Shown piece after piece: positions 4,901 to 62,774 of a stretch of DNA of 64,000 bases (its first letter is position 1; each line of letters begins with the position of its first letter). A program made the position numbers and the translations under genes. Source of the DNA: Nautilus pompilius (lineage: Eukaryota > Mollusca > Cephalopoda > Nautilida > Nautilidae); contig JACATO010002187.1 in assembly GCA_018389105.1 (NCBI GenBank), positions 83,501 through 147,500 of the forward strand, in the 5' to 3' direction. The notes under the pieces are model-generated. The model was not told where the DNA came from and made no database searches. It was given only the letters and a program-made list of their open reading frames with translations.

Positions 4901-7807
4901 CCATCTCGTTCCCTGCTTCGCTCTTATGAGTTATCTACCTTTCCGCTTCTTCTTCTTCTTCTTCTTTTTCAATTATCTATCAGGTGAAGCACATAGCCTT
5001 ATAAAAACTCGCGCTAAGCACCATCGCAATTTTCATAGTTTTCTCTCTCTCTCTCCTCTCTCTCTCTCTCTCTCTCTCTCTACTGACGTCATCTCTCTCT
5101 GTCCGACGTCATCTCTCTCTGTACTGACGTCATCTTTCTCTGTCCGACGTCATCGCTTTCTGTACCGACGTCATCTCTCTCTGTACCGACGTCATCGCTT
5201 TCTGTACCGACGTCATCTCTCTCTCTGTGCCGACGTCATCTCTCTCTGTCCGACGTCATCTCTCTCTGTACTGACGTCATCTCTCTCTGTCCGACGTCAT
5301 CGCTTTCTGTACCGACGTCATCGCTTTCTGTACCGACGTCATCTCTCTCTCTCTGTACTGACGTCATCTCTCTCTGTCCGACGTCATCTTTCTCTGTCCG
5401 ACGTCATCTCTCTCTCTGTGCCGACGTCATCTCTCTCTGTACTGACGTCATCTCTCTCTGTCCGACGTCATCGCTTTCTGTACCGACGTCATCTCTCTCT
5501 CTCTCTCTCTCTCTCTCTACTGACGTCATCTCTCTCTCTCTCTCTTCTCTCTCTCTCTCTCTCTCTCTCTCTCTCTCGTCAGTTTTTATTAACAACCAGC
5601 TACTCTGGTTGGCAGCGTGACGTACGAGAATGACCTCCGGGCCGAGATCGACCAATCACCAGCATCGTCTGAGCGTCGTTCGGGGTTTCAAACTGGGATG
5701 GGTGGCAAATCTATACGCGTGGCGCTTTGTTTCGGCAGAAAAGCTTGGGCCGGTAAGAATTCCAGGCTGCTCCCGCGTACAGAAAAAGGGTCTCCACTCG
5801 AGCTCGCAAAAATAAAAAAAAAATAAAAAAAACACCAAACGCAAGGGAAAAGACCCAAAGTTGCAATGACAGCTGATGTGAAAGATTTCATCTTGACTGT
5901 TCTTTAGAACCATCAAAGTTTTCCGACGAAAGGCTGAAGTTGAAAGAACGAGAAGGAAACCGAGAGACATTGTACACGCGACACACTAAACCGAGTCGGA
6001 AAAATGACCTTATGCAAAAAAAATAAAATAAAATGAAATAATAATAAAATAAGATAACATTAGTTAAAGCCAAATAATTTTTTTTCTTTTTTCGTTTTCC
6101 TGTTCGAAAATTATTAATTAGGGCTGATGATCAGATGATGGATACCGTGTCTCGTGATGAGGGGGGGGTGCTATCGCTGAATAACCGAAGCCGTGAATCG
6201 TTCGTGTATAGCGCGCAGAGAGTCCCATAATGCCGTGTAATTAAGATTGGCTGCGGGGTTTTCCATATGTCAACAAACCACCTTCAGCAAGCGGGCCTTC
6301 GTTCAGCATCAATATGGGGGAGGGGCATCTTCCACAAAAGATAAAGGAAAGTGACCAGAACCCGGGAGCGTCTCGCCAACAGGCAGAAACAAGTTGTTGC
6401 TGGCTAATAAACGCACTAACCTCTGTATACGGTGAAAGGAATTTCGGTCATAGCCTGAAAATATCCAAACAGAGGGAGGGGAGAAGTGATAAGTAGTTTT
6501 CAAAACTGCTAAGAGTAACTAAATATTCAGGTGCGAGTTTAAAAAAAAACAACAACAACAGCAACAGCTTATCGCTTTAGCACATCACCGTCAGAAGATA
6601 CAGAGACAACACCGTTAGATATTCGATGGGTAAAATACTTTTCGGGCTGCTCTGTCGTAGAGTGAGGGGATCAAATTCCCGTCAGTCAGTCGGGTGTCTT
6701 GCAGCTGACACTCCGCTTTACCCTCGGCGAGACGTCATTAACGTGCGTCTGCCCGTGATCTGGATGGCACAGGCAGTGTTACGGTCGTGGACGTAAATGT
6801 AAAGGGAGTACGGCTAAGAGTTAGACAGGAAGCTAATGACGGAGACGACAGTTGTGGCTCCCTTAGTCGTAGGGGGCCCTCTCCCTTTCCCTTTTTTCTC
6901 TCGATCCCACCTCGGCTCGTCGACCAAACGGCGGGGGCGCCGAAGTCTCGGCCGTCGTCCGGCCGCTCCATCTCTTGGTCGTGGGTGGGCCGTCGGGAGG
7001 CGTAAACGAAAGTTTCTTCAGCTCCCCAGAGCTGTGAGACCCGAACCCCGACTTAAACAGAGAAGGGGCGGGCCGACGTCTTCTGGGCCGGCCCCGACGT
7101 CGCCACATTTGGGATGGAAGTAGCTGCAGCGGGTGACCGGATCCAACAAGCATATTGGAGGCATCCGTACCAGAACGCTTCGGCGCCTAGTTAATGATAT
7201 CTATGTAAGAGCTTTGTAACATCGTCTTTCGACAACGACGAAGGTCAATGAACTATTTAGAATTTCCACACGATTGGCTGAGATTCTCTTATGTGAAAAA
7301 GTCCAAAGCTGGTAAATGGGATTTAAGGTTTTGGATTTGCTTATTCTGTCAGAAACAGACCGTAGTGGATTCGTTGTTATAAGAGACGGACTTCACAGAC
7401 ACAGCACGAACTGGGTTCACTAGCGAAAGACAGTCTCAGAGACTCCTGCGTGTACCAGAGCTGATGCATACACACTTGAACAGTGTCTGTCCGTACATCT
7501 ACTGGCTCTAAACACAAACAAACAAGAGGTAGAACTTACTGGTTGTGCTGGCAGAGTCTCCTGCTAACATACAGTCGTCGAAGAAGCTCTTCTGCTCGAC
7601 GCACACCTTGTAGATCAGGTTAAACACGTAACCAGGCTTACAAACAGGCATTTTCTTCGGATATCCCCAGATACATCTGTACCACACCCTGCAGTCCGCC
7701 GAGTCTCGTTCGTAGCTGAAGAAGCCAGAGCATCTAACAGCCGCGTCGACCCGACACATCAGGCTCACTAACACCAAGAGACTGACCACGTAGGTTAGGG
7801 ATCGCAT
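1541..7807 (-). CDS. Secreted chitin-binding protein, 3 exons (CBM14 / peritrophin-A modules)
   Basis: Seen: exons 7807-7540, 4057-3818 and 1992-1541 join with phases 1 and 1 to give a protein of about 319 aa. It opens with a hydrophobic signal peptide of about 22 residues (MRSLTYVV start, ending CRVDA). Modules in order are a six-Cys CBM14 in exon 1 (WYRC, FDDC), a second in exon 2 (NCAQYFNC, GYLGDYVAEC), and two cysteine-rich units in exon 3 (YPNC, then GFYPDQSGRCSVYFVC). Known: CBM14 domains bind chitin through three disulfides and occur in peritrophic and mollusc shell or mucus matrices. Inferred: an extracellular chitin-binding matrix protein. The ATG at 7807 is preferred over the in-frame one at 7855 because the signal sequence starts there and a TATA motif lies 82 bp upstream. 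Introns hold a 51-bp minisatellite and a CRE/CT array. It is paralogous to the plus-strand locus at 24.5-31.4 kb. Confidence 0.85.
2031..3255. repeat. 51-bp minisatellite in intron 2, about 24 copies
   Basis: The unit combines TTTCCCGCCGGAAGGAGG, GAGCGAAAGTAGAGACG and TTAAAAATTTAACA. It lies in the last intron of the minus-strand gene. The unit is 17 codons long and stop-free on the minus strand, in frame with exon 3, which creates a long open frame encoding LLSLHLLPAGNVKFLTS repeats. The intact acceptor at 1993 argues that this is intron. Confidence 0.95.
3435..3442. promoter_or_regulatory. Isolated TGACGTCA palindrome (CRE/ATF-like)
   Basis: A perfect 8-bp CRE palindrome lies in the intron between exons 2 and 3 of the minus-strand gene, outside the tandem arrays. 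Function is inferred only from the motif. Confidence 0.35.
3818..4057 (-). CDS. Exon 2: second CBM14
   Basis: The acceptor is TCGTGTAG and the donor is GCAT|GTAAGC, phase 1 in and phase 1 out (240 nt). The six cysteines lie in EKCL, NCAQYFNC, VAEC, NRC and VKC. It aligns with exons 2 and 4 of the plus-strand locus (PGYLGDYV in common). Confidence 0.88.
4058..7539 (-). other. Intron 1 of the minus-strand chitin-binding gene
   Basis: This 3.5-kb intron lies between phase-1 splice sites. It holds the TGACGTCAT/CT array at 5041-5580 and a GC-rich, CpG-rich block at about 6880-7100. No further chitin-binding exon is visible. Confidence 0.6.
5041..5580. repeat. TGACGTCAT/CT tandem array
   Basis: Irregular units carry (C/A)TGACGTCAT or CCGACGTCAT followed by CTCTCTCTGTA, CGCTTTCTGTAC or longer CT runs. 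The array ends in pure CT. It is one member of a dispersed family seen again at 14.8, 48.2, 50.0 and 60.8 kb. Confidence 0.93.
7540..7807 (-). CDS. Exon 1: signal peptide plus first CBM14
   Basis: The exon runs from the ATG to donor CCA|GTAAGT, phase 1. A signal peptide is followed by one complete six-cysteine module (RCS, DCR, RCI, VCK, VCV, DDC). The layout matches exons 1a and 1b of the plus-strand locus, including the phase. Confidence 0.88.

Positions 7808-62774: not shown

Follow-up and report, generated by a model that had tools for sequence, protein, structure and literature searches.

Five tandem arrays in a 64-kb stretch of the Nautilus pompilius genome belong to a family of minisatellites dispersed through CT/GA microsatellites. 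In the reading that we favour, to which a probability of about 0.5 is given, the family has been carried from one CT tract to another through ectopic conversion or template switching. The stretch, here called the window, is C2085:83501-147500, and the genome searched comprises 728 Mb in 2,558 contigs. The unit is built on the palindrome TGACGTCA, a textbook cyclic AMP response element (CRE), referred to here as the core. On the strand that reads CT an array has the general form (CT)n - [GTAC-TGACGTCA-(A)T-(CT)n]k - (CT)n, with variations. The initial annotation had described five arrays pairing the palindrome with CT/GA runs in both orientations, and all five were found where it had placed them. 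They are given below, with + or - for the strand that shows CT in the spacer.

5042-5577, +. Array 1: 21 units with a spacing of mostly 20-21 bp, six with exact TGACGTCA and 15 with CGACGTCA; the layout is (CT)n, then the units, mostly GTAC/TGTC-[T/C]GACGTCA-T-CT-rich, then (CT)n.
14750-15031, -. Array 2: 10 units, 23-27 bp long on the CT strand, with TGACGTCA in five and TGTTGTCA in four.
48223-48395, +. Array 3, degenerate: a long (CT)n, two GTACTGACATCAT units (both TGACATCA, with an intact core in neither) and a CAT run.
49960-50213, +. Array 4: 7 units of 38 bp, all exact, with the unit TACTGACGTCATCTCGCTCTCTCTCTCGTTCTCTCTCG (6.7 copies, 100% alike, by Tandem Repeats Finder); the CGTAC variant is present and the first core has no CT run before it.
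60766-62776, -. Array 5: 67 or 68 units depending on the rule used, mostly of 30 bp, 28 of them exact (66.8 copies of a 30-bp unit); the commonest forms are GTACTGACGCCACATGTCCCTCTCTCTCTC, GTACTGCCGTCACATGTCCCTCTCTCTCTC and GTACTGACGTCACATGTCCCTCTCTCTCTC, and the CGTAC variant is present.

The window holds 56 copies of TGACGTCA, where 100 dinucleotide shuffles gave 0.74 on average (sd 0.92, maximum 4), and a chance origin is thereby excluded. A 200-kb sample from the start of contig C1, which brings the sequence sampled to 264 kb, added 14 CT-linked arrays or small copies. Across 19 arrays the units were mostly 17-38 bp and were present in from one or two up to 68 copies; the 18 arrays measured were 0.1-2 kb long. 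Head-to-tail units of about 7-100 bp in variable copy number, as seen in these 19 arrays, and the internal duplication and homogenisation evident in the blocks of array 5 and in private variants, are the properties of a minisatellite. Classical satellites form long, homogeneous, heterochromatic or centromeric arrays, which were not seen here: the 18 measured arrays are of 0.1-2 kb and the flanks tested match only themselves, though long arrays collapsed in the assembly may lie elsewhere. The annotation had also taken the palindrome plus GTAC to be the constant part of the unit. GTAC was indeed the commonest 5' neighbour, but it was not constant, being found at 38 of 47 palindromes in the window and at 61 of 126 on C1, where CTCC took its place in 30 of 126.

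Abundance, polarity and CT context

The 13-mer TGACGTCATCTCT has 30,622 exact matches in the genome (15,799 + 14,823), compared with 31 (17 + 14) for the reversed control pattern, and TGACGTCA itself was counted 93,914 times against 19,528 for its reversal. The genome-wide excess of arrays that the initial annotation had named as support for its claim is therefore present, and the arrays are not confined to the window. The 100 matches to TGACGTCATCTCT listed, from C1 and the first part of C2, make up 29 arrays, ie 3.4 per array, and by rough extrapolation the total is about 8,900 arrays genome-wide. The density of TGACGTCA was 56 per 64 kb in the window, 136 per 200 kb at the start of C1 and 93,914 per 728 Mb overall; the window and the C1 sample are thus about 5-7 times richer than the genome mean, and local densities should not be extrapolated. 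Arrays that carry different unit variants, with unrelated flanks at each of dozens of loci, do not have the appearance of a single collapse in the assembly. Neither a 20-mer nor an 18-mer of the founder unit was matched exactly in IMG/VR or GTDB contigs, and an Rfam search of the window gave no match. Nor was a report of the repeat found among the titles and abstract openings listed by searches of the open literature, a scope outside which subscription journals and preprints fall.

The polarity of the unit relative to CT is fixed. In the window and the C1 sample taken together, 173 copies of the palindrome are in CT context, and GTAC was on the 5' side of 99 of them and on the 3' side of none; TGACGTCA accounted for these 173 out of 256 8-mer palindromes of any kind in that context. 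No array had matches on both strands, either among 47 arrays of a dimer variant described below or among the 29 arrays of the 13-mer, and the arrays themselves are found in both chromosomal orientations.

The association with CT was examined at tracts of at least 16 nt in the 264 kb, by scoring TGACGTCA, TGACATCA or CGACGTCA within 60 nt. The core was near 34 of 63 CT/GA tracts, compared with 0 of 50 AC, GT, AT, AAT, ATT, CTT and AGG tracts; it was also near three of four ATC tracts, apparently those within CT arrays. Genome-wide, TGACGTCA followed by (CT)6 within 12 nt was found 6,065 times in the forward and 14,977 times in the reverse direction (the latter figure includes repeated overlapping lengths), with 17 and 10 for the controls, and TGACGTCA with (CA)6 was found 149 and 264 times, with controls of 32 and 10. 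Since the 264 kb contain 63 CT/GA tracts and 11 AC/GT tracts, these pairing counts overstate the preference per tract. Judged by eye, a CT run lies ahead of the first core in 15 of 17 arrays. CT tracts were also seen to contain very small copies, a single module at C1:129.5 kb and a pair of units at C1:124.6 kb, which fit the transfer of short patches. A longer CT tail on one side, which would resemble the end of a retroposon, was considered and dropped, the tail exceeding the lead in just 10 of 18 arrays.

Many of the (CA) sites listed read TGACGTCAGTACACACA, ie, on the CT strand, (TG)nTAC ahead of the core. This is a hint that the founder may have originated at a (TG)n/(CT)n junction. The GTAC side of the core was seen to run into (CA)n/(TG)n, not CT, on C8, C99, C140, C304, C496 and other contigs. 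Such cores may be the founder junction itself or may belong to a side branch.

Flanking DNA and relatedness of the arrays

The flanks at the sampled loci are unrelated. When 1-kb flanks of the 17 arrays in the 264-kb sample were compared, there was no flank-to-flank match, and one 37-bp match to other DNA. A 1.5-kb query from the region of array 1 gave 76 other matches in the genome on 39 contigs (a hand count, with 40 of 740 first-look candidates scored), and all 76 were confined to query positions 497-1041, ie the array itself at window positions 5037-5581, with none in the flanks. Many of these matches span 400-550 bp at 75-87% identity. Joined 120-bp flanks from ten other arrays, including arrays 2-5, gave 20 matches in the genome, all of them self-matches (11 of 11 candidates scored), and the 52 flanks of 26 dimer arrays gave no cross-match. 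Repeats resembling target-site duplications were present at 20 of 46 sites and at 20.3 in shuffled pairings, with edges blurred by CT and several of the 46 being segments of one array. The unrelated flanks at the tested loci argue against a shell of the Helentron, short interspersed element (SINE) or miniature inverted-repeat transposable element (MITE) type. What moved at the sampled loci would appear to be the core and CT, nothing else having been detected there, and the arrays seem to have spread without a surrounding transposon.

Arrays 1 and 2, and likewise arrays 4 and 5, are about 10 kb apart and of opposite orientation within each pair. Paired 10-kb transposons with array-bearing inverted ends were therefore considered. 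In favour of them, these two were the only pairs among the ten possible in the window with 18-mers in common, consisting of founder words in the first pair and of the CGTAC variant (319 genome matches) in the second. Against them, the DNA between arrays 1 and 2 is unlike that between arrays 4 and 5, the 2-kb flanks within the pairs have only 17-bp and 32-bp stretches in common, the flanks tested match only themselves and the first seven arrays of C1 are all in one orientation. The idea was rejected.

The arrays are related to one another in tiers, with a founder unit found throughout the genome, two derived variants of regional distribution and two others that are each private to one array. 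A founder 51-mer, a piece of the plain 21-bp tandem, was matched exactly 32 times in 29 arrays, each on a different contig, ie genome-wide and unclustered. The 25-bp dimer variant TGACGTCATATCTCTCCTGACGTCA had 93 matches, all of them listed, in 47 arrays on 26 contigs; ten of these arrays are on C1, which is 0.14% of the genome, and six on C356. The dimer was carried by 10 of the 22 arrays of the 13-mer on C1, compared with about 0.5% of arrays genome-wide, a percentage that depends on the extrapolated total. The second regional variant, CTCTCTCTCGTACTGACGTCA, is the CGTAC variant which marks window arrays 4 and 5, whose common 18-mers all contain CGTAC. Among 100 of its matches listed, 38 were on C117 (14 arrays by hand count, over 3.4 Mb and in both orientations) and none on C1; it was also absent from the 200 kb of C1, and no dimer array was found on C117. 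The subfamilies are regional yet well mixed. Two private variants from window arrays had 5 of 5 and 11 of 11 genome matches within their own array, the latter being a 24-mer from the unit of array 5. The mean sharing of 18-mers was 0.054 among the window arrays (2 of 10 pairs) and 0.294 among those of C1 (78 of 91 pairs).

Within array 5 the core variants lie in alternating blocks, in the order A-C-B-A-C-B-A. A repeated block order is the usual mark of unequal exchange, and this one shows repeated internal duplication.

Proposed mechanism of spread and its alternatives

The description of the arrays in the initial annotation as a mobile or repeatedly seeded family is supported by the single founder unit, the thousands of arrays (extrapolated) and the unrelated flanks at the tested loci. 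In the mechanism that we propose, the founder segment GTACTGACGTCAT(CT)n would have had a single origin in or next to a CT tract, perhaps where (TG)n meets (CT)n. Ectopic repair, whether by gene conversion, break-induced replication or template switching, would then copy short founder patches into other, pre-existing (CT)n tracts, the homology being supplied by the CT run itself. Once at a new site, a patch would grow into an array through unequal exchange and slippage, and its variants would be homogenised by the same processes. As only the core and CT travel in this model, the flanks should be unrelated and the polarity relative to CT fixed, with the chromosomal orientation left free. A role of this kind for GA/CT tracts has been proposed in the sea urchin Sp185/333 family. 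The tracts there are likewise possible start and stop places of ectopic exchange, with similarity dropping outside the tract; the sea urchin, however, exchanges genes within a gene family, whereas here a short core alone is involved, genome-wide (PMC3091723).

Several observations weigh against spread by patch copying. Two of the 17 arrays (at 49.96 kb in the window and at C1:62.4 kb) have no CT run ahead of the first core, array 5 has only short ones, and some cores adjoin (CA)n/(TG)n. The search of the genome with DNA queries skips very common words, and flanks of high copy number could escape it, a gap that the 264-kb comparison covers in part. No array-free allele or empty site was seen, nor a second copy of any flank tested, so that both the spread between CT tracts and the prior existence of those tracts are things we infer. 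The 71 same-contig pairs of dimer arrays within 1 Mb, against at most 3 under uniform placement, were judged by a yardstick that is too low, because arrays in general cluster along C1 (variance/mean 2.6 per 100 kb), and in dimer carriage alone C1 (10 of 22 arrays) and C2 (0 of 7) did not differ significantly (p = 0.06). Outside the dimer itself, dimer arrays on the same contig had 3.49 20-mers in common and those on different contigs 3.50, a value reached in 931 of 2,000 permutations. Local conversion would predict a decay with distance, and none was seen within the dimer subfamily.

Dispersed euchromatic satellites in Drosophila and Tribolium have monomers mostly of 100-400 bp and heterochromatic sources, and the reinsertion of extrachromosomal circles is a route that has been proposed for some euchromatic satellites. 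The Drosophila 1.688 and Tribolium repeats resemble the CRE arrays in forming short arrays in gene-rich DNA and in being homogenised more weakly between dispersed arrays than within clusters (PMC10048060); the unit here differs in being a CT microsatellite with a 13-bp insert. If whole Nautilus arrays moved as circles and reinserted by microhomology at CT tracts, the unrelated flanks and the apparent lack of an excess of target-site duplications would be explained equally well. The 400-550 bp over which many matches to array 1 extend also speak for this route. Such a route fits nearly as well as patch copying. We nevertheless regard it as unlikely, given that one- and two-unit copies exist and that 15 of 17 arrays, by eye, start in a CT run and not at some arbitrary phase of the unit. 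There is less to be said for arrays that are the variable core of a non-autonomous transposon (a Helentron of the HINE type, a foldback element or a SINE tail) with ends that are short or lost. The precedent is the Cg_HINE elements of the oyster Crassostrea gigas, non-autonomous Helentrons that carry satellite-like arrays. The oyster report describes, as here, thousands of short dispersed tandem arrays in an invertebrate genome, with fixed unit orientation and no target-site duplication, but the arrays were chosen for monomers of 100-500 bp, against mostly 17-38 bp here, and their flanks are conserved, with subterminal inverted repeats (subTIRs), a microsatellite and a palindrome (PMC7492417). 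The spacing and opposite orientation of arrays 1/2 and 4/5, and the CGTAC variant common to arrays 4 and 5, could also be taken in favour of a transposon. No common flanking sequence emerged, however, in four comparisons, target-site duplications were not in excess as far as the blurred edges show, the DNA between the two pairs of arrays differs and, with 319 matches, CGTAC is not special to arrays 4 and 5; a transposon shell thus appears largely excluded at the sampled loci, and the chance that one is involved is slim. Finally, CT tracts are abundant (63 in 264 kb), and might repeatedly have yielded the same palindrome by mutation or convergence, without any spread. Common descent is required, though, by the one-sided GTAC, the identical 51-bp founder tandem in 29 arrays and the 25-bp dimer in 47, and independent origin is effectively refuted.

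The remaining alternatives concern the core. Exact TGACGTCA was retained in 171 of 297 units in 19 arrays (our own sum), 184 of 355 in 15 and 418 of 677 in 42, three counts made with differing rules for finding units. By the last of these, the CRE sequence itself is present in the majority of units, and the core is the most abundant palindrome in CT context. Selection might keep the arrays as clustered CRE/ATF sites, acting as enhancers or as sinks for bZIP proteins, the roles suggested in the initial annotation, or as chromatin organisers. The core was also less variable than GTAC within 12 of 15 arrays, with the reservation that unit finding required a near-match to the core. Arrays with mostly or wholly broken cores persist, on the other hand: array 3 at 48.2 kb, two arrays elsewhere (L030 and L032) that retain TGACGTCA in 15% and 21% of units, and most of array 5 at 60.8 kb, where the core has been lost from 39 of 67 units, in homogenised blocks. 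There is thus no clear sign that the core is protected, and maintenance by selection seems improbable, although function would still be compatible with these sequences. Ten copies of TGACGTCA lie outside the arrays in the window, at 3435, 10322, 23916, 24319, 25216, 25538, 25607, 36804, 51750 and 55513, with 0.74 expected window-wide, and a lone copy at C1:85726 has a CCAAT-like neighbour. Some of these lone sites may be ordinary promoter CREs.

The core might instead drive its own spread. Binding of bZIP (ATF/CREB) proteins at TGACGTCA would open the chromatin and attract meiotic breaks, and repair at the CT tract would lengthen arrays and copy cores elsewhere. This version is speculative and takes its lead from the M26/CRE hotspots of yeast, and we consider it very improbable. 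M26/CRE in S. pombe is bound by the ATF/CREB factor Atf1-Pcr1, starts recombination and is active in S. cerevisiae too (PMC9775316, PMC3534124); not every CRE site is a hotspot, however (PMC9775316). The M26 motif ATGACGTCAT is one base off the commonest form in the arrays, CTGACGTCAT. The arrays differ in the fate of the heptamer ATGACGT. Preferential retention of the heptamer, a criterion of our own, was taken as the mark of a hotspot of the M26 type, and the heptamer was no better kept than its mirror, lying above it in 12 arrays, below it in 10 and equal in 14 (sign test, p = 0.83).

Genomic surroundings and significance

The window also contains a cluster of frames for CBM_14, the chitin-binding Peritrophin-A domain. 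Eight of ten open frames tested matched, at E up to 0.01, one of them just below the curated cut-off. The frames span 1544-7882 on the - strand and 24414-31412 on the + strand, and those at 29870-30376 and 30927-31412 look, by eye, like close duplicates. Array 1 lies between the minus-strand frames at 3744-4088 (below the cut-off) and 7511-7882 and hence presumably in an intron, so that such arrays may sit in transcribed DNA. Four other minisatellites, at 1000-1369, 2043-3258, 41640-42319 and 58862-59596, have units of 53, 51, 37 and 42 bp, respectively, in 7-24 copies, and are by eye unrelated to the CRE arrays. The 51-bp unit (17 codons, no stop) leaves open a frame of 610 amino acids that runs into a minus-strand CBM_14 frame. 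Elsewhere in the genome, a search for COX1 gave 117 matches, nearly all with in-frame stops in the standard code, such as L033 (C112:262789-263529), and the same blocks, corresponding to profile positions 196-283 and 281-346, are repeated across numerous contigs; these are apparently many nuclear copies of mitochondrial DNA. One translation reads like that of a lophotrochozoan.

Transposons, or spill-over from heterochromatin, are the usual explanation for dispersed tandem arrays. The Nautilus family, in which an estimated 9,000 arrays have one founder unit of about 20 bp in common but no flanks at the tested loci, is a good natural system for the study of spread that is accompanied only by a microsatellite, and its regional subfamilies give that spread a geography which can be mapped. 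As a CREB/ATF site and a known recombination motif of yeast coincide in the core, the self-multiplication of a bound motif becomes testable, as does the effect on bZIP signalling of tens of thousands of extra CRE sites in an animal. If the core does drive its own spread, the family would be a selfish repeat without a transposase, made up of a recombination motif and its own homology arm, and it would mark the regions of the genome that are active in recombination.

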